From the NCBI RefSeq assembly GCF_963682185.1, contig NZ_OY821667.1, positions 4,663,501-4,727,500 on the forward strand: DNA of 64,000 nt. The letters are read 5' to 3'. The first letter of the stretch is position 1; the number at the start of each line of letters is the position of its first letter. Below are positions 20,711-32,957 of the stretch, piece after piece. The position numbers and the translations under genes were made by a program. The notes beneath the pieces were generated by a model. That model saw only the letters and a list, made by a program, of their open reading frames with translations. It was not told the origin of the DNA and ran no database searches. Source of the DNA: an uncultured Cohaesibacter sp. (lineage in GTDB: Bacteria; Pseudomonadota; Alphaproteobacteria; Rhizobiales; Cohaesibacteraceae).

Positions 20711-21658
20711 ATGGATATTCGCAATTACACCAGCTTTGTTGCCGTAGCCGAATTGATGAATTTCACAAAGGCGGCGGAACGGTTGAATATCACCCAGTCT
20801 GCCCTTTCCCGACAAGTTAAGGCGCTTGAAGATTATCTGGGCGTCAAGCTTTTCGAGAAGACTGGCCGCAATATCCGCTTCACGCCGCAGGGCGAGGCGC
20901 TGCTGGCCAAGATCAACAACGTGTTGGTGGCGGATAGGGAGCTGCGTACCTTTGCAGACGATCTCACCGAAGGGGAATCCGGCCTTCTCAAAATCGGTGC
21001 ATGCTCGCAATTGATCGAGCGCTATATGCCGAGCTTTCTGAAGAAATGGACCGAAGACAATCCCGACATCGAGATACGCCTTGAAGATGGCGGTGGACCG
21101 GAGCTGGCGAGCAAGCTGGTGGATGGTGTCTTCCACCTGACCATCAGCGCCGAACCGTCCGCTCCGATCGAGGTTTTGGAAAGCCGTCCTCTGGGGCAGC
21201 TCGGTTTTCTGGCGGTCGGTGGCGCGGAGTTTCTGGGCAATGAAGCCGATCTGATCGAAATAGAAGATCTGCTCAGCCTGCCCATTCTCACGCTCAACAA
21301 GAAGCATGTCTCCCGTGAGGTGTTTGACGCAGCCTGCCGGGTGAGCGGAACGGTGCCGCGTGTGGTTTTGGAGAGCAATTCGCCCCACACGCTGCTGGCC
21401 ATGTCTATTGGCGGCAATGGCGTTGCCGTTGTGCCATCATCTACCCAGCCGCAGGGGCCGAAGCTGCGCAGCCGCCCCATAGCGCTCAAGGGCGAACCGA
21501 TTACTTTCGGCATTTGCGCCATGTGGAATGTGCGCCAACCGCTGCCTGCCTATGGTCAGCGCTTTATTGATTCCCTTGGGGACCATATTTGCAACGAGCA
21601 ATATCAGGAAGAATTTTCACTTCAATCCGTACAATATGGGCATCTGCAGGTCATATAA
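20711..21658 (+). CDS. LysR family transcriptional regulator
   Basis: A 315-residue LysR-type regulator. The N-terminal winged helix-turn-helix is clear: SFVAVAELMNFTKAAERLNITQSALSRQVKALE, quoted here in parts around AAERLNITQSALSRQ and YLGVKLFEKTGR. The C-terminal periplasmic-binding-like effector domain spans about 90-300 and includes ILTLNKKHVSREVF and MSIGGNGVAVVPSS. The ATG at 20711 follows an in-frame TTG at 20708; the ATG gives the usual MDIRNYTSF start. It points towards the ABC catabolic cluster that begins 171 bases downstream, so it probably controls that cluster. Effector unknown. Confidence 0.9.
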   Translation: MDIRNYTSFVAVAELMNFTKAAERLNITQSALSRQVKALEDYLGVKLFEKTGRNIRFTPQGEALLAKINNVLVADRELRTFADDLTEGESGLLKIGACSQLIERYMPSFLKKWTEDNPDIEIRLEDGGGPELASKLVDGVFHLTISAEPSAPIEVLESRPLGQLGFLAVGGAEFLGNEADLIEIEDLLSLPILTLNKKHVSREVFDAACRVSGTVPRVVLESNSPHTLLAMSIGGNGVAVVPSSTQPQGPKLRSRPIALKGEPITFGICAMWNVRQPLPAYGQRFIDSLGDHICNEQYQEEFSLQSVQYGHLQVI

Positions 21659-21829
21659 TCGTTTGATTTTTGCGCAAAACTGCAATCCATGCAGAATGCG
21701 CATGGTTTATACGTAAAAATATTCATTGGACGTGCTGGTCCAACTGACGCTACGCTGCTCATTGTTTAGGCAAGAAGGCTTGCTGCATCATTATTATGCA
21801 GTGCTAAGCACGGAGTAGGGTAGCACACA

Positions 21830-22801
21830 ATGAGCTTCATAAAAAATCTCAATCAGGAAAGCATCGTGCTGGCGATTACGGTGATTATGTTTGCGCTGGC
21901 GTCGTTGCTTCTGCCGGGTTTCTTCACGGCAAACAATCTGGTTGCCATTGTGCGCTCTGTTTCCGTGTTGGGGATCCTTGCTCTTGGCATGGCCATGATC
22001 ATTATCGGTCGTGGCATTGACCTTTCCATGGTGGCCATTATGGCCATGTCCGTTGCCTGCTATCTGCAAATGCTCAATTCGGGCATGGGCGAGGGCAGTG
22101 CTCTTGTTCTGGCTTTGGCTGGTGTGTTGGCCATCGGGCTGATTAACGGCGTTTTGGTGGCCTATGCCGATGTACCCGCTATTTTCGTAACGCTGGCCAG
22201 CTCATCTTTCGTTTTCGGCTTTGTGCGGTCCCAGCTGATCAATACCGATGCTGTCCCTGTGCCATCCGGGCACTGGGTCGAGATCCTCGGCGGTATGCGC
22301 TTTATGAGTATTCCGGTCGAGGTTTTTCTCTTTGCCGGTCTTGCCTTTGCCACCTTTTTGTTCCTGCGTTACAGCAAGTGGGGACGCTATGTCTATTATG
22401 CAGGCGACAACCCGGAAGCTGCGCGTAACTCTGGCATGCCGGTTCGTCCTATGATGGTGCTGCGTTATGTGATTTCCGCGCTCATTGCCTTCATCGCCGG
22501 TATTCTGACGGCCGCCAGCCTGCATTCCATCAACACCCGTATCGTTAACTCCAACCTGCTCTATGACATTGTGCTGATCACGGTCATTGGCGGTATTGGT
22601 CTTTCTGGCGGCAAAGGGGGCGTGCGCAACGTTTTGTTCGGCGCGGCCCTGATCGGCATCATGCTCAACGCCATGACGATCATCGATATTCCTCTGCTCT
22701 ACCAGAATCTCATCAAGGCCGGCATCCTGCTGGGCGCCATCATCGTCGACGGTATTCTCAATCCGCGTGATGAACAGACGGCGCAGCAGGGAGACATTTA
22801 A
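21830..22801 (+). CDS. Sugar-type ABC transporter permease (RbsC/AraH family)
   Basis: A 323-residue inner-membrane permease with eight to ten hydrophobic segments. It carries the BPD_transp_2 signatures LGMAMIIIGRGIDLSMVAIM near the N terminus and LYDIVLITVIGGIGLSGGKGG near the C terminus. It is the first structural gene after the LysR gene; a GGAG-containing site lies just upstream of the ATG. With the second permease (24172), the binding protein (22925) and the double ATPase (27352), it makes a complete importer whose permease would be a heterodimer. Substrate unknown; sugars, sugar acids or lactones are typical of the family. Confidence 0.9.
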   Translation: MSFIKNLNQESIVLAITVIMFALASLLLPGFFTANNLVAIVRSVSVLGILALGMAMIIIGRGIDLSMVAIMAMSVACYLQMLNSGMGEGSALVLALAGVLAIGLINGVLVAYADVPAIFVTLASSSFVFGFVRSQLINTDAVPVPSGHWVEILGGMRFMSIPVEVFLFAGLAFATFLFLRYSKWGRYVYYAGDNPEAARNSGMPVRPMMVLRYVISALIAFIAGILTAASLHSINTRIVNSNLLYDIVLITVIGGIGLSGGKGGVRNVLFGAALIGIMLNAMTIIDIPLLYQNLIKAGILLGAIIVDGILNPRDEQTAQQGDI

Positions 22802-22924
22802 AGCAAGCCCCGTAAAGATCCCGCAAGACCCCACTACACCCACAAAGTCCAGAACCAACAGTATCTATACCAATAAAAACCAAAAATCCGAGCAATCACA
22901 ATCCTTTCCAACAGAGGGACAGAC

Positions 22925-23956
22925 ATGAACATCATCAAGACCCTTATGGCCGCGACTGCGGCGCTTACCATCAGCTCAGCCGCCCTTGTTACGCAGGCCG
23001 CTGCCGCTGGCGACCCTGCACCACAGATCTATGCAAAGGCCATGGAAGGCAAGCGTATCATGCTCGTGCCGATGGCCATGGGCTTCGATCTGGCTCAGGG
23101 CTGGGCCGCTATCCTAAAGCGTGAAGTGGACGCCTTTGGCGGCATCTTCGAAACCCGCGATCCCAACTGGAGCGTGGAAGCTGGCGCACAGGCCATCACC
23201 GAAGCCATTGCCTCAGAAAACAAGCCTGACGTTCTGATTGTCATGTCACCGGACATGAACTCCTATTCCAAGCTGATGAAGCGCGCCCAGAAGGCTGGCA
23301 TCTATGTCATCCTCGTGGACAACCCGGCCAACTTCAAGGCTGATGCCTATGTTGGGAGTGATTGGACCCAGCTTGGCCGTCTGGAAGCGGAAGCCGTTGT
23401 CAAAGGCTGTGGCCCGGATTCTTCCAAGAAGATTGGTCTGGTTCAGGGCGATCAGGTCAACGCAACCAGCCTGTTCCAATATGCAGGCATCATGGAAGTG
23501 CTTGCCAAATATCCTGAATTTGAAGTGGTCGCCAAGCCTGATTCCAACTGGGATGCCACCACCTCGCGTAACGTGACCACCACCATGTTGCAGCAGAATC
23601 CTGATATCTGCGGCATCATCGACTTCTGGGATGGGGATGCCTCTGGTGCAGCTGCCGCAATTCGCGATGCTGGCAAGCAGGACGATGTGTTCCTTGTCAC
23701 CACGGGCGGTGGTGAGAAAACCGCAGACTGTGATCTTATCGAAGATGGCACCTATGGCGCCGTGGTCATGACTGACCTGGCTCAGGAAACCCACAATATG
23801 GTGGCGATCATCAAATATCTGCTCCAGAGCGGCCAGCCTGCAGGCACTTCAGCGCCGTATATCTACACGCTGTTGAAGGCAACCACCAAAGACAACCTCA
23901 AGGCTGACAGCTGCTGGGATCTTGCCGCACTTCAGGCAGAAGCTGCCGGCGAATAA
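22925..23956 (+). CDS. Periplasmic sugar-binding-type protein with four cysteines
   Basis: A 343-residue type I periplasmic binding protein with a signal peptide (1-28, cleavage near TQAAAAGD). The two-lobed fold is visible in RIMLVPMAMGFDLAQGW, DVLIVMSPDMNSYSKLMKRA, AGIYVILVDNPANF and KKIGLVQGDQVNATS. The mature chain holds four cysteines, Cys162, Cys229, Cys269 and Cys330, enough for two disulfides, which is unusual for this class. The ribosome site AGAGGGA precedes the ATG. Downstream, a strong intercistronic hairpin separates it from the second permease, consistent with higher expression of the binding protein. Ligand unknown. Confidence 0.88.
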   Translation: MNIIKTLMAATAALTISSAALVTQAAAAGDPAPQIYAKAMEGKRIMLVPMAMGFDLAQGWAAILKREVDAFGGIFETRDPNWSVEAGAQAITEAIASENKPDVLIVMSPDMNSYSKLMKRAQKAGIYVILVDNPANFKADAYVGSDWTQLGRLEAEAVVKGCGPDSSKKIGLVQGDQVNATSLFQYAGIMEVLAKYPEFEVVAKPDSNWDATTSRNVTTTMLQQNPDICGIIDFWDGDASGAAAAIRDAGKQDDVFLVTTGGGEKTADCDLIEDGTYGAVVMTDLAQETHNMVAIIKYLLQSGQPAGTSAPYIYTLLKATTKDNLKADSCWDLAALQAEAAGE

Positions 23957-23971
23957 AAGTCGCGATCTGGT

Positions 23972-23998
23972 CTGGCAGCGCTTTTGGGGTGCTGCCAG
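23972..23998 (+). repeat. Intercistronic stem-loop after the binding-protein gene
   Basis: A perfect eight-base stem, CTGGCAGC (23972-23979) and GCTGCCAG (23991-23998), closes an 11-base loop 15 bases after the binding-protein stop. There is no long T run. Such hairpins after binding-protein genes often protect the upstream message or partly terminate, raising the binding protein over the membrane subunits. The remaining 170 bases before the next gene show nothing else. Confidence 0.6.
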
Positions 23999-24171
23999 CC
24001 TTAATCAGGTGCGGGCAGGGTGCTTATGGACTGCCCGTTCCACTCCGCCTCCTTGCCGGTGCTGATCGGCAGTCAAGCAGGTGGAATCTTTGTTTTTTCT
24101 ATTCCCACTCCGTCTCTTTCTGGAATCCTCCCTTACGTGACGGATGGCTCAAGTCGTCGGAAAATTGATAG

Positions 24172-26295
24172 ATGGCCTTTCGTGAAAGACTGCAAGCCTG
24201 GCGCTACAATACCATTCCCGATCATCTCATCGGGGAGATCCTGACCAAGCGTTGGACGGATAACGCCATTCCCTTCATTGCCCTGGTGATCACTGTGGCC
24301 GCCTTCGGATCTGCGATTCCGGGTTTCTTCAGGCCCTATTCCTTGCAGGAATCCACCAGGCAACTGGGGGAATTCTCTCTGGTTGTTACGGGGTTGTCGG
24401 TGGTCATGCTGGGGGGCGGCATCGACCTTTCGGTTGGCTCCATCTTTGCGCTGGCGACCTTTGCGTCTGTTGGGACCTTCTTCATTTTTGAAGCGCCGGT
24501 GTGGGTCTGTCTGTTGGCTGCCATCGCAACAGGCGTGGTCTGCGGCGCGATCAACGGCTATCTCATCGGCTTTCTGCGCCTGCGCGCTTTCCTCACCACG
24601 CTGGTGACCTTCATCATTGGCCGCGCCCTGTTTGATATTCTCGTGGTGCAATATGGTGCCGCAACGCAGATGTCCTTCATGTCGTCCGACTTGTGGGATT
24701 TCATCGGTGATGGCACGCTGTTTGGCTTCTCGGTGCCGGTGTTGACAGCGATTGTCTTTGCGCTGATCACCCATATTGCACTAACCCGATCGAGGCCCGG
24801 TTGGCATGTGCAGGCAGTTGGTGGCTCTCGCCGCTCCGCGCATAATGCCGGTATCCGCGTGCGGCGCACTGTTTTCATGACCTATGTCTTTTCAGGCTTT
24901 TGTGCCGGTGTGTCCGGCTTCCTCATGGCAACACGCCTGTCGAGCGCGGGGCCGGGCACAGGCCACGGTCTTGAAATTCTGGCGCTGACGGCTGCCGTTG
25001 TTGGCGGTAACTCCTTGGGGGGCGGTCGGGGCTCTGTGGTCAAGGGCATCATGGGCGCGATCATCGTGCTGGTGATGACCAACGGTCTAATCCGTCTTGG
25101 CTTCGGTACGGGCACCAACCAGATGGTGCTTGGCATCATGTTGGCACTGGCTGTAACCATCGATATCCGCTGGCTGAAAAACCGTCACAAGGTGCTCAAC
25201 GAGATTTATGTCGCACCGGTCTATCTCAAGATGGGCAAATCGGAATCCGCAGAACCCGGATCCGGCTCGGCCTATTCCCTTAATAACAAACTCTCCTCGG
25301 CACAGCATATAGGGCTGGGCGAGTTGGAAGGACCTGAGGATGTGATCCTTGACCGCGATGATCATCTTTATTGCGGCACACGCCACGGCGAGATCATCCG
25401 CTACTTTGCACCCGACTATAAACGGTCCGAAGTCTTTGCCCATGTCGGAGGCTTCCCGCTGGGGCTGGCCTTCGACAAGGATCAGAACCTTATCACCTGC
25501 GTTGGCGCCATGGGGCTCTACAAGATCTCTCCGGACCGCGAAGTTACGCGCCTTTCTGCCGAGACGCGCCGTTCGCTGACCTCCATCGTCGATGACGCCC
25601 GCATGCGTGATCCGAACGATCTCGACATCGCGCCTGACGGCAAGATCTATTTCACAGACTCAACCAAGCGCTATGACGCCCATGAATGGATGCTCGACTC
25701 TATTGAAAACCGTGGTACGGGGCGCCTGTTGGTTTATGATCCCAAGGATGGCTCCACCAAGACGCTGCTTGATGGTTATCGCTACACCAACGGCGTATGC
25801 ATGGCCCATGACGGCCAGTCGCTCTACTTCTCGGAAAGCTGGCGCAGTCGCATCCATCGTTATTGGATCGCAGGCCCCAAGGCGGGCACCGTGGAATGTG
25901 TCATCAAGGATATGCCGGGCTATACCGATAATATCAACCGTGCGTCCGATGGCACCTACTGGATGGCATGGCTCGGCATGCGCACACCCAGTTTTGACCT
26001 CTCACTGCGTCACCCGGACATGCGCAAGCGCATGACCCGTCGCCTGCCGCAGGATGACTGGTTGTTCCCGAACATCAACACTGGCGGTATCGTCAAATTC
26101 GATGACAGCGGCACAATCATCCAGACCATGGGTGATCTTACCGGTCAGAACCACCCGATGGTGACCTCGATGCGCGAGCATAAGGGCAAGCTCTTCATTG
26201 GCGGCATTCTGAACAACCGCATCGGCTTGTTTGATATTGAAGGCGCCGACCCGAATTGGACCGGCATGACGTCCTATTGGGGAGAAAAAGCATGA
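24172..26295 (+). CDS. ABC permease fused to an SMP-30/strictosidine-synthase-like beta-propeller
   Basis: A 707-residue fusion. Residues about 1-335 form an RbsC-type permease with VTGLSVVMLGGGIDLSVGS, AVGGSRRSAHNAGIRV and LEILALTAAVVGGNSLGGGRG. After a linker (about 340-375) rich in Ser and Gly, residues about 380-700 form a six-bladed propeller of the SMP-30/gluconolactonase/strictosidine synthase superfamily, with GEIIRYFAPDYKRSEVFA, DPNDLDIAPDGKIYFTDST, YRYTNGVCMAHDGQSLYFSE and NRASDGTYWMAWLGM. The conserved Asp and Asn residues of the metal site appear to be present. In this permease family the C terminus is cytoplasmic, so the propeller would meet the substrate as it enters. A lactonase role is inferred. 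The stop overlaps the next start (ATGA). Confidence 0.88.
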   Translation: MAFRERLQAWRYNTIPDHLIGEILTKRWTDNAIPFIALVITVAAFGSAIPGFFRPYSLQESTRQLGEFSLVVTGLSVVMLGGGIDLSVGSIFALATFASVGTFFIFEAPVWVCLLAAIATGVVCGAINGYLIGFLRLRAFLTTLVTFIIGRALFDILVVQYGAATQMSFMSSDLWDFIGDGTLFGFSVPVLTAIVFALITHIALTRSRPGWHVQAVGGSRRSAHNAGIRVRRTVFMTYVFSGFCAGVSGFLMATRLSSAGPGTGHGLEILALTAAVVGGNSLGGGRGSVVKGIMGAIIVLVMTNGLIRLGFGTGTNQMVLGIMLALAVTIDIRWLKNRHKVLNEIYVAPVYLKMGKSESAEPGSGSAYSLNNKLSSAQHIGLGELEGPEDVILDRDDHLYCGTRHGEIIRYFAPDYKRSEVFAHVGGFPLGLAFDKDQNLITCVGAMGLYKISPDREVTRLSAETRRSLTSIVDDARMRDPNDLDIAPDGKIYFTDSTKRYDAHEWMLDSIENRGTGRLLVYDPKDGSTKTLLDGYRYTNGVCMAHDGQSLYFSESWRSRIHRYWIAGPKAGTVECVIKDMPGYTDNINRASDGTYWMAWLGMRTPSFDLSLRHPDMRKRMTRRLPQDDWLFPNINTGGIVKFDDSGTIIQTMGDLTGQNHPMVTSMREHKGKLFIGGILNNRIGLFDIEGADPNWTGMTSYWGEKA

Positions 26296-27347
26296 TCCTC
26301 GATCCCATCCTCGATATTTTCCGCGGCAAGGCCGTCACCATTCCGCCCATGGACGGCGCTTTCCGCCCCAACACGGTGCTGGATGATGCCGAAATTGTCT
26401 CCCACCTTTCCGAACCGGACAATCTGGCTGTGCTGAAAGGAGAGGTGATTGCCACCTCGGGCAATGCCATCTATGCCATAAATAAGGGCAACGAGCCCAA
26501 GGTGTTGCGGTCTTTCGAAGCGCCGATCACGGCCCTCGCAGTTTCGCCCGACGATAAACTGGCGGTCGCTCTGGAAACTGGCCAGCTCTTCGTGGAAGGG
26601 GAACCTGTCCATCTGCTCGAAGAGATCAAGGCAATCACCGCACTGGCCTATTCCTATGATGGCTCTCTCTGGCTGGCCAATGGCTCTTCGGAACATGCCT
26701 GCTCGGATTGGGCTGCCGACCTGATGAGTAAGAAGGCCTGCGGCTCTATCTGGGTGCGCCATACCCCCAGCGAGCCGTTCGAAAAGGTCGCAGGCGGCTT
26801 GGCCTATCCCTATGGTCTGTGCCCCTTGAGCGGTGGCCGTGTGGTCTTCTCTGAATGCTGGAAGCATCGCGTGATGCAGATCGATGCGGACAAGAATCTA
26901 TCCACGCTGATTGACCAGATTCCCGGATATCCCTCCCGCATCATGCCGACAGAGGATGGTGGCGCTATCCTATCCGTTTTTGCCCCGCGCAACCGTCTGG
27001 TGGAGTTGGTGCTGCAGGAAAAGCACTATCGCTATGACATGATGGAAAGCGTTCCCCGCGATTACTGGATCGCTCCGGCGCTCTATTCCAACCGCAGCTT
27101 CCTTGAGCCGCTGCAATGTGGTGGCATCCGCACCATGGGTGTTTACAAGGCTTGGGCCCCGGCTCGTTCCTACGGCATGGTCGTGCGGTTGGGCAAGGCC
27201 ATGAACCCGATCACCAGCATGCACAGCCGTTCAAATGGCAACCGTCATGGTGTCTGCTGCGCCATCGAGCATGGTGGCGAGATCATCGTCGCTTCCAAGG
27301 GCGGTGATTTGCTGCTTGGCATCGAAGATACGAAAGCGGAGGGCTAA
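26292..27347 (+). CDS. SMP-30/strictosidine-synthase-like propeller protein
   Basis: A 351-residue protein without signal peptide, related to the propeller domain fused to the preceding permease. Blade-like repeats include ITALAVSPDDKLAVALETG, ITALAYSYDGSLWLANGSS, GLAYPYGLCPLSGGRVVFSE and GYPSRIMPTEDGGAILSVFAP. The C-terminal section HGVCCAIEHGGEIIVASKGG closes the propeller. The ATG at 26292 overlaps the stop of the fusion gene, so both products should be made together. It probably acts on the imported compound or its first product. Whether it is an active lactonase or a divergent partner is unclear. Confidence 0.8.
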   Translation: MILDPILDIFRGKAVTIPPMDGAFRPNTVLDDAEIVSHLSEPDNLAVLKGEVIATSGNAIYAINKGNEPKVLRSFEAPITALAVSPDDKLAVALETGQLFVEGEPVHLLEEIKAITALAYSYDGSLWLANGSSEHACSDWAADLMSKKACGSIWVRHTPSEPFEKVAGGLAYPYGLCPLSGGRVVFSECWKHRVMQIDADKNLSTLIDQIPGYPSRIMPTEDGGAILSVFAPRNRLVELVLQEKHYRYDMMESVPRDYWIAPALYSNRSFLEPLQCGGIRTMGVYKAWAPARSYGMVVRLGKAMNPITSMHSRSNGNRHGVCCAIEHGGEIIVASKGGDLLLGIEDTKAEG

Positions 27348-27351
27348 GGAT

Positions 27352-28848
27352 ATGGACCCCATCATTCGCATGGAAAAAATCACCAAGGCCTACCGCGGCG
27401 TTCCTGCCATCAAGGACGTGGATTTCGAGCTGCACAAGGGCGAAGTACACGCGCTTCTCGGTGAGAATGGCGCTGGCAAATCTACCCTTACCAAGATGAT
27501 GGCGGGCGTGGTCGAGCCAACCAATGGCAAGATGTTCCATCATGGCAAGGAGACGGTCTTTACCAACCCTAATGAGGCCCTTGAAGCGGGCATCGCTATG
27601 GTGTTTCAGGAAACCAGCCTTGTTCCATCCATGACGGTGGCGCAGAATCTTTATCTGGGCTCTGAAAGCTTCCTCAATCGCCTGCGAGGCACCTTCATTT
27701 CGGCCCAGCAGTTCTTGCAATCGCTCAACTTCTCTGTAGACCCGACTGCGTTGGTCGCCACCCTTGGTGCCGCCAAGCGGCAGATGGTCGAGATTGCCCG
27801 TGCGGTGCATCACAAGGCCGAAGTCATCATTTTCGATGAGCCGACCGCTACCCTGACACCGGAAGAAAAGCGCCATTTCTTCGCGCTGATCGAGCGGCTC
27901 AAAAAGAGCGGCGTGTCAATTATCTTCATCAGCCATGCCCTTGAGGAAGCGTTGCAGATTTCCGATCGCATCACCATCCTGCGCGATGGCGAATTGGTGG
28001 CCAGTGACAAGACCGAGAATTTCACTCGCGACACGGTGATTGCCGCCATGGTCGGCCGTACCCTTTCGGGAGAGCTTTATCGCGATCGTGGCGAAAGTGG
28101 CGTACGCAAGGCGGGCAAGAAGGTGCTCTCCGTGCAGGATATTTCCATGGGCGCCATGGTTCGCAACAACTCTTTCTCCGTTTTCGCTGGCCAGATCACC
28201 GGCGTTTTCGGCCTGATCGGGTCTGGCCGTACCGAGACGTTCAAGATCATTTCCGGCATCTACAAGCGCGACTTCCTGCGCGGTGGAACCGTGGTGCTCA
28301 ACGAAAAGCCGACCCGCTATTATGTGCCGCGTGAAGCAGTCAAAGACGGTATTGTCTATGTTACCGAAGACCGCAAGAGCGAAGGCTTCTTCGAAACCAT
28401 GTCGATTGCCGAGAATATCTATGCCGGGCTCATCGCTGCCGGTCATGACAAGGCTTGGTATATCAGCAAGAACGAAATGAGCGATGTAGCGGCCGCCTGG
28501 TCCAAAAAGCTGAACATCAAGGCCATCAATGACAATGCCCGCGTGGTCGAGTTGTCCGGTGGTAACCAGCAGAAGGTGGTGATCGGCAAGGGACTGGTGC
28601 AGGAACCCAAACTGGTGATCTTCGATGAGCCCACGCGCGGCGTGGATGTAGGCGCGATTGCCGAGATCCATCAGATCATCAACGGCTTGGCCGATCAGGG
28701 GTTGGCGGTGGTGGTGATTTCCTCCTACCTGCCAGAGATCATGAATCTCTCAGACCGAATTCTCGTCTGCCGACAGGGGCGCATCGTGGAAGAGTTCTCA
28801 CCCGCCGAGGCAACCGAAGAAAAAATCATGTATGCGGCGGTCCATTAA
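27352..28848 (+). CDS. Sugar-type ABC transporter ATP-binding protein with two ATPase domains (RbsA/MglA family)
   Basis: A 498-residue double ATPase that energises the importer. The first half has Walker A GENGAGKST at 37-45 and Walker B VIIFDEPTATLT. Its signature region reads TLGAAKRQMVEIARA instead of a clear LSGGQ. The second half has a degenerate Walker A, GLIGSGRTE, the signature LSGGNQQKV and Walker B LVIFDEPTRGVD. Such asymmetry is normal for this family. The ATG at 27352 was chosen because AAGGA lies just upstream and family similarity begins there; the frame is open for 39 further codons upstream, inside the previous gene. Confidence 0.93.
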   Translation: MDPIIRMEKITKAYRGVPAIKDVDFELHKGEVHALLGENGAGKSTLTKMMAGVVEPTNGKMFHHGKETVFTNPNEALEAGIAMVFQETSLVPSMTVAQNLYLGSESFLNRLRGTFISAQQFLQSLNFSVDPTALVATLGAAKRQMVEIARAVHHKAEVIIFDEPTATLTPEEKRHFFALIERLKKSGVSIIFISHALEEALQISDRITILRDGELVASDKTENFTRDTVIAAMVGRTLSGELYRDRGESGVRKAGKKVLSVQDISMGAMVRNNSFSVFAGQITGVFGLIGSGRTETFKIISGIYKRDFLRGGTVVLNEKPTRYYVPREAVKDGIVYVTEDRKSEGFFETMSIAENIYAGLIAAGHDKAWYISKNEMSDVAAAWSKKLNIKAINDNARVVELSGGNQQKVVIGKGLVQEPKLVIFDEPTRGVDVGAIAEIHQIINGLADQGLAVVVISSYLPEIMNLSDRILVCRQGRIVEEFSPAEATEEKIMYAAVH

Positions 28849-28880
28849 TGGACCTGCCAACCTTTTGAGGGAGAAAGACA

Positions 28881-29735
28881 ATGGCTTCCAAGCGCGCGAT
28901 GTGGACCTATTACAAGGGCGATTGGTATGAGGGCGATGTGCGCATTCTGGGCGCGGCCTCTCACGGCACATGGATCGGGTCTTTGGTGTTTGATGGCGCG
29001 CGCCTGTTTGAGGGCGTTTCGCCGGATCTTGATCTCCATTGTCAGCGGGTCAACCGTTCCGCCGAGGCCTTGATGCTGGCGCCGACCCTGAAAGGGGAAG
29101 AGATCGAAGCACTCGCGATGGAGGGCATCAAGAAATTTGCCCCCAATACCGATGTCTATATTCGCCCGATGTATTGGGCAGAAGAGGGAGATGTCGGGTT
29201 GCTGCCACCGCTTGCCTCCTCAACCGATTTTGCGCTTTGCCTTGAAGAAATCCCGATGGTTGAACCAACCGGCTTTTCCATCACCACCACCCAGTTTCGC
29301 CGCCCGACCATTGCCGTTGCTCCAACCAATGCCAAAGCGGCCTGCCTTTATGCCAACAATGCCCGCATGGTGCGCGAAGCTCAGATGAAGGGCTTTGACA
29401 ATGCATTGGTAACCGATTGCGCGGGCAATGTCGCGGAGCTGGCCACCGCCAATGTTTTCATGGTGCGCGGCGGGGAGGTATTCACCTCCATTCCCAATGG
29501 TACCTTCCTTGCTGGTATCACGCGGAAGCGTGTCCTCGGGCTGCTGCGTGATGCTGGCTACACCGTCCATGAAATGACCTTGACCGTTCAAGACTTCATG
29601 GAAGCGGACGAAATCTTTTCTACCGGGAATATCTCCAAGGTCATCCCGGTATCTCGCATTGAAGACCGGGAACTCGCATACGGGCCAATCACCAAGAAGG
29701 CTCGTTCACTCTATATGGAATGGGCACACGCCTAG
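28881..29735 (+). CDS. Class IV (branched-chain-type) aminotransferase
   Basis: A 284-residue PLP enzyme of fold type IV, similar to branched-chain and D-amino-acid transaminases. Landmarks are SLVFDGARLFEGV near the N terminus, the PLP lysine Lys152 in PTNAKAACLYANN, and NALVTDCAGNVAELATANVF and GTFLAGITRKRVLGLLRDAGY. A ribosome site, GAGGGAG, precedes the ATG. It follows the ABC ATPase gene after 32 bases and belongs to the same cluster, which suggests the imported compound carries or becomes an amino or keto acid. A biosynthetic IlvE role is possible but less favoured by this setting. Confidence 0.85.
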   Translation: MASKRAMWTYYKGDWYEGDVRILGAASHGTWIGSLVFDGARLFEGVSPDLDLHCQRVNRSAEALMLAPTLKGEEIEALAMEGIKKFAPNTDVYIRPMYWAEEGDVGLLPPLASSTDFALCLEEIPMVEPTGFSITTTQFRRPTIAVAPTNAKAACLYANNARMVREAQMKGFDNALVTDCAGNVAELATANVFMVRGGEVFTSIPNGTFLAGITRKRVLGLLRDAGYTVHEMTLTVQDFMEADEIFSTGNISKVIPVSRIEDRELAYGPITKKARSLYMEWAHA

Positions 29736-29747
29736 AAGGATATTATA

Positions 29748-30155
29748 ATGGCAACTGTCAAACTGCTCACCGATGAAGACGCCGAAAAAATCCCAGCCGT
29801 AAAGGAAGTTTTTGATGAAATCCGCGAGCTGCGTAAAACCGACTTCATCAACAATTTCTGGCGTGCGCTGGGAGCGGCTGATCCGGCCTTGCTCAAGCGC
29901 ACATGGGAAGGGCTCAAGGCTGTCATGATGACGCCGGGCAACATCGATCCGATGACCCGCGAGATGATCTATATCGCCGTTTCGGCCGCCAACTCCTGCT
30001 CCTATTGTCTGCATTCGCACACGGCGCAGGCCCGCGCCAAGGGTATGACTGAAGACACCTATGCCGAGCTGCTGTCCGTCGTCGGGTTGGCCGCACAAAC
30101 CAATCATCTGGTAACTGCGATGCAGGTGCCTGTCGACCCTGAATTTTTGGCCTGA
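29748..30155 (+). CDS. Carboxymuconolactone decarboxylase/AhpD-like protein
   Basis: A 135-residue protein of the AhpD/CMD fold. The redox motif CSYC sits in SAANSCSYCLHSHTAQARAKG, quoted around NSCSYCLHSH, with the conserved His three residues after the second Cys as in AhpD-type peroxidase-like proteins. The upstream helix EMIYIAVSAAN is also typical. A ribosome site, GAAGGA, precedes the ATG 12 bases after the aminotransferase stop. It is likely a thiol-dependent antioxidant or hydroperoxide-handling protein of the catabolic cluster; a lactone decarboxylase role is less likely given CxxC. Confidence 0.82.
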   Translation: MATVKLLTDEDAEKIPAVKEVFDEIRELRKTDFINNFWRALGAADPALLKRTWEGLKAVMMTPGNIDPMTREMIYIAVSAANSCSYCLHSHTAQARAKGMTEDTYAELLSVVGLAAQTNHLVTAMQVPVDPEFLA

Positions 30156-30232
30156 GCGCCTGACATAAAAATATGACTTTGGCACCGCCGCTGCTTATTG
30201 CTGTGGCGTCGGTGCAAAAATCGGAGAACAAA

Positions 30233-31204
30233 ATGGATATGGCACTTGTCGCTTCCAGACCTGGTGGTCCGGAAGTCATGGAGTGGTGCGCGCTGGAAAC
30301 AGGCACACCCGGACCCGGAGAAGCCTTGGTGCGCCACACCGCAATCGGCGTCAATTTTATCGATGTTTATAATCGCACAGGGCTTTATCCCTGGGCCGAA
30401 GACACGATGATCCCCGGCGCAGAGGCAGCTGGCGTTGTCGAAGCCATCGGTGCAGGCGTCGAAGGGCTCAAGGTTGGTGACCGGGTTGCCTATGTCCTCA
30501 AGTTTGGTGCCTATCGCGAACGGCGCGTACTTGCCGCTGATCGTCTGGTGGTGCTGCCTGATGGTATATCCGATGACCTTGCCGCTTCCGTCATGCTCAA
30601 AGGCCTGACCGCGCAATATCTCGTTACTTCCTCCTATGCCGTCAAGGCAGGGGATACGGTGTTGGTTCATGCTGCCGCTGGCGGGGTTGGCCTCATTCTG
30701 GGCCAGTGGCTCAAGGCCCTTGGCGCGCGCGCCATCGGCACCGCAGGTTCGGCGGAGAAGGTCGCGCTGGCGCTTAAGCATGGCTATAGTGATGTCATCA
30801 ACTATCGTGAAGAGAATTTCGCTGAAAAGGTCATGGAACTAACCGGTGGCGAGGGCTGCGAAGTTGTCTATGACAGTGTTGGTAAGGATACATGGCGAGG
30901 GTCGATCAGTTGCCTCAAGCCTTTCGGCATGTTTGCCAACTTTGGTCAGTCGTCTGGCATGATCGAGGATTTCAAACTCTCCGATCTGGCCGGTGGGTCG
31001 AAGGCCGCCTGTCGCCCTGTGCTGTTTGACTATGTGGCAAAGCGCGCCGATCTGGAAGCGCGCGCTGCTGATTTGTTCGACAAACTCGTCAGTGGTGCGG
31101 TGAAAGCCGATGTCGTTGCTGCTGTGCCATTGAAAGACGCCGGAGAAGCCCACAAAGCTCTGGAAGGCCGCAAGACCACCGGCGCCACCATTCTCAAGCC
31201 GTGA
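30233..31204 (+). CDS. Zinc-independent quinone oxidoreductase (MDR family)
   Basis: A 323-residue NADPH:quinone reductase-like member of the medium-chain dehydrogenase family. The N-terminal GroES-like part shows GVNFIDVYNRTGLYP and PGAEAAGVVEAIGAGVEGL. The Rossmann part has VLVHAAAGGVGLILGQWLKA and the C terminus AHKALEGRKTTGATILKP. Zinc ligands of alcohol dehydrogenases are missing, as usual for QOR. The ATG at 30233 follows GGAG at an acceptable distance; an upstream extension to 30173 lacks similarity. It is the last gene of the LysR-ABC cluster and is followed by a terminator. Confidence 0.9.
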   Translation: MDMALVASRPGGPEVMEWCALETGTPGPGEALVRHTAIGVNFIDVYNRTGLYPWAEDTMIPGAEAAGVVEAIGAGVEGLKVGDRVAYVLKFGAYRERRVLAADRLVVLPDGISDDLAASVMLKGLTAQYLVTSSYAVKAGDTVLVHAAAGGVGLILGQWLKALGARAIGTAGSAEKVALALKHGYSDVINYREENFAEKVMELTGGEGCEVVYDSVGKDTWRGSISCLKPFGMFANFGQSSGMIEDFKLSDLAGGSKAACRPVLFDYVAKRADLEARAADLFDKLVSGAVKADVVAAVPLKDAGEAHKALEGRKTTGATILKP

Positions 31205-31319: not shown

Positions 31320-32957
31320 CTAGCGCGGCTCTGAACTGAGGCCTTTATAGACCGCATAGCACATGACCAGCAGCACCACTGTGAAAGGAAGGCCGGTGGA
31401 TATCACCATGGCCTGTAGGGCTGTTAAACCGCCACCAACCAGCAATACAATGGCAACTGCGCCCTCAAAGGTGGCCCAGAAAACGCGCTGCGGAACCGGC
31501 GCGTCGATCTTGCCGCCTGCCGTGATGGTATCAATGACCAGCGAGCCGGAGTCAGAGGAGGTGACGAAGAAAACAATCACCAGCACAATGGCAATCACGG
31601 ACGTGATGCTGGAGAAGGGCAAGCCTTCAAGCATCGCAAACAGCGAAAGCGGCGGATTGTAATTGTCGATTACATTGTCCTTGACCGCTGAGGTCAGCGG
31701 GTCGGTCAGAACCTGATCAATCGCTACACCACCAAAGACTGCCATCCAGAGAACACAGACCAGAGACGGGATCAACAGCACACAGATGATGAATTCGCGC
31801 ACTGTTCTGCCGCGCGATACGCGGGCAATGAACATGCCGACGAAAGGTGACCAGCTGATCCACCAAGCCCAGTAGAAGGTCGTCCAGCCATGCAGATAAT
31901 CTGTGTCAGTCCGTCCAAACGGGTTGGATAGTGGAATGATATCTTCGACATAAGCAACGAGCCCTTCACCAAAGTCGGTCAGGATCATCACCGTAGGCCC
32001 CACAAACAACACGAACAGCAGTAGCAACGCTGCAATGCCCATGTTGATCTCGGAAAGCAGCTTGACACCACCATCAAGGCCACGCAGCACCGAGAAGAGG
32101 GCAACGGCCGTGATGATCGTGATAAGGATGATCTGCACCGGCGTACCGATGGGAACGCCAAAGACATGATGCAAGCCCGCATTGGCCTGTTGCGCGCCAA
32201 AGCCCAATGAGGTGGCAAGGCCGAACAGGGTGGCAAACACGGCCAGAATATCAATGACGTGACCGGTCCAGCCCCAGATGCGGTCGCCAAAGATCGGATG
32301 GAACGCAGAGCGGATCGTCAGCGGCAGCCCCTTGTTAAAGGAAAACAGCGCCAGAGCCAGTGCAACAATGGCATAGATGGCCCAAGGGTGCAGACCCCAG
32401 TGGTAGATGGTGGCAGCAAGCCCCATAGCTTTCGCCTGCTCAACATTCTCGGCAATGATGTTGCCCGAGCCATCCAGCGGGGAGGGAGTCCCCAGAGGCT
32501 GGGAAACCGCCATGTGATAGACCGGTTCCAAAACCCCAAAGAACATCAGGCCAATGCCCATGCCAGCGGCAAAAAGCATTGCGAACCAGCCACTATAGGA
32601 AAAATCGGGCTCAGCATCCTGCCCTCCAAGTCGCACCTTGCCCCAAGGGCTGACGATGAGAAAGAGGCAGAAAAGAACAAAGATATTGGCAGCACCAAGG
32701 AAAAACCAGTCAAAGGTCGACGTGAGCCACGGGCGCAGCCAGCCAAAAATGGATGCTGCCTGTTGCGGCAGGGCCAGCGCATAAAAAACAAAAGCTACAA
32801 TGCATAGGCCTGAGACGAGAAAGACCGGGTTATGCACGTCAAATCCGAATGGTCCAACCTGACCCTCGACATTGTCCTGACCGATTTCGTAATCAGTTTC
32901 AATAATTTCCGTATCGCCTTCCGGTGCGGGGATGCCAGCTTCTTCGGCATTCGTCAT
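31320..32957 (-). CDS. BCCT family betaine/choline/carnitine-type transporter
   Basis: A 545-residue sodium- or proton-coupled compatible-solute transporter with about twelve transmembrane segments. Family landmarks are FSYSGWFAMLFAAGMGIGLM with the glycine-rich TM3 segment, GLHPWAIYAIVALALA, and TTFYWAWWISWSPFVGMFIA with the tryptophan-rich TM8 signature of the aromatic substrate cage. The N-terminal tail is acidic. GGAGG lies ten bases upstream of the ATG. It follows a UspA gene and lies beside the ectoine locus, so ectoine, betaine or a related solute is the likely cargo; this is inferred. Confidence 0.93.
   Translation of the reverse strand: MTNAEEAGIPAPEGDTEIIETDYEIGQDNVEGQVGPFGFDVHNPVFLVSGLCIVAFVFYALALPQQAASIFGWLRPWLTSTFDWFFLGAANIFVLFCLFLIVSPWGKVRLGGQDAEPDFSYSGWFAMLFAAGMGIGLMFFGVLEPVYHMAVSQPLGTPSPLDGSGNIIAENVEQAKAMGLAATIYHWGLHPWAIYAIVALALALFSFNKGLPLTIRSAFHPIFGDRIWGWTGHVIDILAVFATLFGLATSLGFGAQQANAGLHHVFGVPIGTPVQIILITIITAVALFSVLRGLDGGVKLLSEINMGIAALLLLFVLFVGPTVMILTDFGEGLVAYVEDIIPLSNPFGRTDTDYLHGWTTFYWAWWISWSPFVGMFIARVSRGRTVREFIICVLLIPSLVCVLWMAVFGGVAIDQVLTDPLTSAVKDNVIDNYNPPLSLFAMLEGLPFSSITSVIAIVLVIVFFVTSSDSGSLVIDTITAGGKIDAPVPQRVFWATFEGAVAIVLLVGGGLTALQAMVISTGLPFTVVLLVMCYAVYKGLSSEPR

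Follow-up and report, generated by a model that had tools for sequence, protein, structure and literature searches.

A CUT2-type ABC importer from an uncultured Cohaesibacter with a strictosidine-synthase-like propeller fused to its permease and a degenerate partner propeller

ATP-binding cassette (ABC) importers of the CUT2 type, such as RbsABC, AraFGH and AlsABC, combine two BPD_transp_2 permeases, a tandem ATPase and a Peripla_BP_4 binding protein. Strictosidine-synthase-like propellers form a group of the N6P superfamily, with PON1, Drp35 and SMP-30 as relatives. Here, we analyzed a locus in which both kinds of protein are joined, located in a 64,000-nucleotide stretch of DNA (the window) from the 5.39 Mb genome of an uncultured Cohaesibacter sp. 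(contig NZ_OY821667.1, positions 4,663,501 to 4,727,500). An original prediction, made from the DNA letters, had described the locus as a LysR-controlled import and catabolic system, in which a full sugar-type ABC importer is mixed with two propellers, a class IV aminotransferase, an AhpD-like CxxC protein and a quinone oxidoreductase. Pfam and NCBIfam scans confirmed that every gene named is present in its place. This included all importer parts above cut-off (the tandem ATPase, the Peripla_BP_4 binding protein and both permeases, the latter matching BPD_transp_2 with 101.4 and 120.3 bits; cut-off 26.8), as well as the aminotransferase, the CxxC protein and a quinone-oxidoreductase-like gene. 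By its parts, the window system is a CUT2-type ABC importer containing an N6P domain. Its scores lie below the NCBIfam equivalog cut-offs for ribose, arabinose, xylose and allose importers (e.g., AraG 468/689; RbsC model 146.6/398), and the ATPase resembles AraG, XylG and RbsA yet scores under their cut-offs.

The second permease of the system, permease B, is continuous with a propeller. A single 707-aa open reading frame (ORF) has Pfam matches to BPD_transp_2 (residues 66–327), SSL_N (368–410), SGL (396–602) and Str_synth (482–568), with propeller scores of 52.4 for SSL_N (cut-off 18.9), 60.4 for SGL (26.3) and 82.7 for Str_synth (25). On these matches, the fused propeller is a member of the strictosidine-synthase-like group of the N6P superfamily, and, against PDB sequences, the fusion matched 8kg3 (TGW6) best. 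The predicted count of two propellers was right, but the first is the C-terminal half of permease B and not a separate gene. Among the named contigs scanned, the closest match, Cohaesibacter marisflavi, has an identical fused gene (100%) and other locus genes that are 94%–100% identical. Permease and propeller share one ORF in 122/122 systems, which rules out an artefact as the origin of the fusion; in 105 of these systems, the stop codon of permease B and the start codon of the following gene overlap (ATGA). These systems were defined by propellers at least 45% identical to that of the window, and more distant unfused relatives fall outside the count. The counts are of sequences rather than independent events; many come from Mesorhizobium, and rows are repeated (WIN/L004, L011/L158, L045/L159, L062/L160 and L138/L139).

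The order of the core (permease A, binding protein, permease B with its propeller, second propeller and ATPase) recurs in Alpha-, Beta- and Gammaproteobacteria. In a scan of named contigs it was invariant, contig ends excepted, in the best 80 of 149 candidate loci, and 26 further genome stretches showed the same order save at cut ends (two of these overlap each other, and three repeat named contigs). Twelve annotated plasmid-record regions, from Shinella, Pantoea, Paraburkholderia, Rhizobium, Salipiger, Sulfitobacter, Celeribacter, Paracoccus and another Paracoccaceae, carried the same core among quite different neighboring genes, the last of them in a record that ends at the ATPase. Annotations in these records mostly name the fused gene "SMP-30/gluconolactonase/LRE family protein", or sometimes a plain permease, and the second propeller mostly "hypothetical protein". 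In a class sample of 385 genomes, 16 fused-type places (47%–100% identity) were found in 10 genomes, with frames of 707–755 aa except for one of 559 aa (G368). Another 16 places at 32%–38% identity were stand-alone frames of 358–417 aa, and three rows at 28%–29% lay directly behind fused genes and were taken as second propellers. A 398-genome phylum sample yielded fused places in 11 genomes (E 1e-60). As the fusion and the gene order recur in the examined systems apart from contig ends, both are judged to be far beyond chance, and since the adjoining catabolic genes vary between clades, the propellers belong to the importer. No account of a permease-propeller fusion appeared among the titles and opening abstract lines listed in searches of an open-access library. 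Genome G340 carries five fused importers, and three of these lie within about 17 kb on a single contig (C25; L138 and L139).

Ligands of the catalytic calcium (Ca1) of PON1 are given as E53, N168, N224, D269 and N270 in a passage of PMC7766523, and these were matched by motif to E389, N482, N540, D586 and N587 of the fused propeller. The corresponding E-N/D-N-D-N residues occur in 122/122 fused propellers (ENNDN in 92, EDNDN in 30), and among 49 representatives less than 90% identical the two forms number 22 and 27, respectively. The whole metal site is also present in 15 of 17 stand-alone propeller relatives, the other two ending in G for N. Judged by these residues, the fused propeller retains a paraoxonase-type calcium site. 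Strictosidine-synthase-like proteins with retained metal ligands are more likely to hydrolyse, according to part of a review of the N6P superfamily (PMC4215206), and the fused propeller looks like a working enzyme.

Neither Pfam nor NCBIfam models matched the gene that follows at E 0.001, but the predicted propeller fold was recovered from profile comparison and structure modeling. A profile-profile alignment to the fused propeller spans most of the protein (probability 98.9, E 1.1e-17). Its AlphaFold2 model, with a predicted local distance difference test score (pLDDT) of 84, matched strictosidine synthase best in Foldseek (6s5u, E 5.4e-13) and paraoxonase-1 lower (3sre, E 7.8e-11), and also resembles Drp35. 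According to the model, the second gene is a propeller fold. Equivalents of D586 and N587 are gone from all 119 next genes read directly (kept in 0/119), the former usually being A, S or G and the latter R; most copies have D at the first metal-site position, and single other ligand residues survive in a few. In the remaining three systems, the gene is cut by the locus end (L139_0) or is without a start in the searched span (L147_0 and L155_0), and all three have a tblastn match there. Since the site is complete in all but two of the stand-alone relatives, losing it is a mark of the partner propeller. E188 and G175 are invariant across 115/115 rows of the second-propeller alignment, so the gene is under selection. 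This alignment followed removal of 76 of 191 rows (75 fused ORFs matched by similarity and one short), and the six loci absent from it were included in the direct reading of next genes. Lacking the N6P metal site, the second propeller looks dead, i.e., like a pseudo-enzyme. Two separate secreted propeller enzymes were also considered and ruled out, as one is fused and the second is without a hydrophobic start (judged by eye).

These observations bear on the idea of a chance gene fusion, in which an ordinary lactonase became tethered to the permease without any coupling to transport, beside a decaying duplicate. Unfused layouts do exist, in which a ribose-type permease is followed by a separate gluconolactonase gene. 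However, the fusion is unbroken among the 122 systems, the second propeller comes next in 119 with a tblastn match in the rest, and E188 and G175 stay fixed, unlike in a decaying gene. We consider an accidental tether improbable.

We tentatively prefer the reading that a tethered hydrolase works at the pore exit alongside a dead partner. In this reading, the live fused propeller and its dead sister would sit there together, the former opening a lactone or ester bond in the compound being imported and so making uptake one-way, the latter holding the substrate or gating the live propeller. In the clade of the window, the product would pass to a LysR-induced module of aminotransferase, AhpD-like protein and oxidoreductase. 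A more far-reaching version, about which we are rather doubtful, is that the live/dead heterodimer cleaves every substrate as it arrives, so that ATP-driven uptake is coupled to an irreversible chemical trap; we are equally doubtful of its other part, that one importer platform serves different substrates by being combined with different catabolic modules.

The side of the membrane depends on the helices that follow an arginine-rich loop of permease B (residues 205–233), which should be cytoplasmic by the positive-inside rule. Four segments after the loop would place the C-terminal propeller in the cytoplasm, and three would place it outside. Four helices follow in the model of the fusion, a weak one (pLDDT 52.9), and four hydropathy segments follow in permease A when aligned to permease B. 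The topology of RbsC would likewise place the propeller in the cytoplasm. The propeller pair is likely on the cytoplasmic side, and hydrolysis at the membrane, most likely at its cytoplasmic face, is possible.

Several results weigh against a hydrolase at the pore exit, among them the poor quality of the fusion model. In addition, the hydropathy of permease B itself gives three segments beyond the loop at a threshold of 1.5, with the fourth (267–285) peaking below it at 1.21, and this slightly lowered our confidence, from evenly balanced to just short of it. The strongest point against a substrate-specific enzyme is that the propeller is conserved above the permeases and far above the binding protein (mean distances among 46 representatives: ATPase 0.341, propeller 0.369, permeases 0.45, binding protein 0.53). 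If the propeller were an enzyme acting on varied substrates, its divergence should follow that of the binding protein, whereas a shared regulatory role predicts the conservation observed, which suggests a role common to all members. The main rival reading is that the propeller pair is a sensor and not an enzyme: the domain on permease B would use its former metal site to bind what has been imported, or the product made from it, and so slow down transport (trans-inhibition) in partnership with the dead propeller, comparable to the fused domains of MetNI and ModABC. A propeller better conserved than permeases and binding protein, although neighbors differ, is in line with such a role, a degenerate partner would suit a signaling heterodimer, and fused regulatory domains are described as common among transporters in a section of PMC10710835. 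However, catalytic-type metal ligands are retained in every system, and the same section places the extra domain of MetNI and ModABC on the ATPase, not on the permease. On balance, a sensor seems unlikely. The 46 representatives also bear on a mainly structural role, with the propellers holding the asymmetric permease pair and the ATPase together: core parts evolve together (distance correlations of 0.86–0.97), and the fused and second-propeller genes are coupled by ATGA. Nonetheless, shared ancestry by itself also yields high correlations and a pure scaffold has no need of metal ligands, and we regard this role as very improbable.

Turning from the propellers to the genes around them, we compared neighborhoods in 120 loci (115 without repeats), with counts that cover the stretch around the core, some stretches being cut. 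The LysR-type regulator, the class IV aminotransferase (AT4), the AhpD-like protein and the quinone-oxidoreductase-like dehydrogenase (QOR) all surround the core in 18/120 loci (17/115). Individually, AhpD occurs near the core in 86/120 (82/115), AT4 in 23/120 (22/115) and QOR in 27/120 (25/115), while 30/120 (29/115) have none of 14 queried neighbor genes. Co-conservation across loci is therefore partial, with AT4 and QOR absent around most cores, and these variable neighbors rule out a single fixed pathway of all window genes. The prediction of a LysR-linked import and catabolic locus held, but the proposal that the propellers are parts of one catabolic pathway was not supported, as they stay with the importer. 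AT4, AhpD and QOR form a clade-specific module. In two annotated Shinella plasmids, LysR-AT4-AhpD-QOR lies upstream of the core rather than around it, a linkage retained through rearrangement.

The AhpD-like protein (motif E-X11-CXXC-X3-H) has matches in 54 class-sample genomes. Four of these, including that of the window, are at least 66% identical, and the four genomes carry the importer clade of the window with AhpD adjoining. Matches of 62%–64% occur in three genomes that carry no fused importer, one of 65% lies distant from the importer in a genome whose importer is of a different clade (G688), and others are lower. In one genome (G257; L182:4879–9270), AT4, QOR and AhpD occur together without the importer core. 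Outside the window, the Cohaesibacter genome itself encodes a paralogue of the window aminotransferase, also class IV (55% identical; G000:C1:4758500–4759333). Of the 16 other importer genomes searched, 14 have relatives at 45%–61% identity that are not near the importer; hence, AT4 may be a specialized duplicate. QOR scores slightly below the cut-off of the PRK10754 model (325.8 against 348 bits), and a longer ATPase ORF (from 27235) would begin within the second-propeller gene (Table 1). A BCCT-family transporter adjoins the locus (window 31320–32957), and a Celeribacter relative has BCCT, ring-hydroxylating dioxygenase and sarcosine-oxidase genes alongside the importer (L091:14627–20118); both may be coincidence. 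Among other clades, 44 of 50 same-strand neighbors were scanned, and the 25 of 62 families listed include short-chain, aldehyde and zinc dehydrogenases, CoA ligases, enoyl-CoA hydratases, HMG-CoA reductase and LysR regulators, together with plain housekeeping genes.

Table 1. Genes and candidate regulatory elements of the locus, in window coordinates
Feature	Position	Strand	Evidence and remarks
LysR-type regulator	20711..21658	+	start TTG 20708 or ATG 20711; HTH_1 and LysR_substrate above cut-off
Candidate LysR box	21687..21705		dyad CCATGC-N7-GCATGG
Promoter-like conserved block	21721..21756	+	ATTCATTGGACG ... CTACGCT
Permease A	21830..22801	+	BPD_transp_2, without additional domain
Periplasmic binding protein	22925..23956	+	Peripla_BP_4, 148.2 bits (cut-off 35.1)
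Permease B fused to strictosidine-synthase-like propeller	24172..26295	+	707 aa; propeller at residues about 365–707
Second, degenerate propeller	26292..27347	+	profile-profile comparison and predicted structure; start overlaps preceding stop (ATGA)
Tandem ABC ATPase, ribose/arabinose type	27352..28848	+	two ABC_tran stretches
Class IV aminotransferase (AT4), branched-chain type	28881..29735	+	NCBIfam NF009896/PRK13356, 489.9 bits (cut-off 262)
AhpD-like protein with CxxC	29748..30155	+	CMD and ahpD_dom above cut-off; ahpD_dom 58.9 bits (cut-off 27.8)
Quinone-oxidoreductase-like dehydrogenase (QOR)	30233..31204 (ORF from 30173)	+	ADH_N and ADH_zinc_N above cut-off

A LysR relative lies near the core in 26/120 loci. 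In the window, a dyad followed by a promoter-like block lies between the LysR gene and permease A. Related half-sites were found in 18/21 LysR-bearing loci, against 0.14 expected from shuffled sequences, and in 1/60 without LysR, against 1.4 expected, and the promoter block, at up to three mismatches, in 20/21 and 52/60, respectively. These counts omit four repeats, and the shuffles preserved base composition only. The footprint supports the predicted control by LysR but is not proof of it, because the pattern was derived from the same loci and the LysR-free loci include many Mesorhizobium. The catabolic locus is probably co-regulated.

In the binding protein, W60, W147 and W235 (118/120, 114/120 and 119/120 rows, respectively; 111 of the 120 rows are distinct) possibly form an aromatic cage. 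Q185, W235 and G261 align, via 4ry0, with the presumed ribose contacts R, N and D, and as far as these contacts hold, the alignment leans against an ordinary ribose-type sugar. The substrate would more likely be a hydroxy-acid, lactone or amine than a plain sugar. The lactone, sugar acid or glycosylated compound of the original prediction is a putative substrate, and the genes next to AhpD homologues where no importer lies close by gave no pointer to the substrate. Neighboring dehydrogenase and CoA-ligase genes, joined in two systems by one for HMG-CoA reductase, fit hydroxy-acid or lactone substrates. In those two systems, the HMG-CoA reductase gene is directly upstream of the importer (L093:7613–8938, annotated as degradative, and L139:13676–15010), suggesting that mevalonate or its lactone is taken up. 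Mevalonolactone is our guess for both; a search of the open-access literature on mevalonate import found nothing useful. Isochorismatase-, glutamine-synthetase- and N-formylglutamate-amidohydrolase-like genes occur together in 13/120 loci, often with an RpiR regulator (e.g., L007:2956–6700), and such gamma-glutamylamide-type genes hint at an amine substrate for these loci. Mesorhizobium loci (e.g., L024:1176–7541) have desaturase-like, MocE-type ferredoxin, PanB-like, histidine-ammonia-lyase-like, ornithine-cyclodeaminase-like and MFS genes beside the importer, each in 38 to 45 of 120 loci. Where the PanB-like gene is present, pantolactone would be a guess.

For many importers found in soil and marine Proteobacteria, no substrate is known. 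If the fused propeller is catalytic, the system would couple ABC transport to chemistry, and if it is regulatory, it would represent a new place and fold for the control of importers; the conserved live/dead propeller pairs allow clear mutational tests. To our knowledge, there is no described case of primary transport plus modification of this kind, and we know of no earlier importer with enzyme-like and pseudo-enzyme propellers built onto a permease. RbsABC, AraFGH and AlsABC share the importer parts of the window system, but the latter scores below the NCBIfam cut-offs of these named systems, bears a propeller on permease B with a second propeller gene following, and has a binding protein that differs at the presumed sugar-contact positions. 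Members of the strictosidine-synthase-like N6P group share SSL_N, Str_synth, SGL and the metal ligands with the fused copy, which differs in its attachment to a permease and in having a sister propeller whose metal site has been lost. Ribose-type importers of Neorhizobium and Paraburkholderia sprentiae also have a permease adjoining a propeller (gluconolactonase) gene, although these are unfused, with a single propeller, another gene order and only 26% and 23% identity, respectively (permease plus propeller). Finally, MetNI and ModABC carry an extra cytoplasmic domain on an importer, as proposed here for the window system, but theirs is borne by the ATPase and has a different fold, according to part of PMC10710835.

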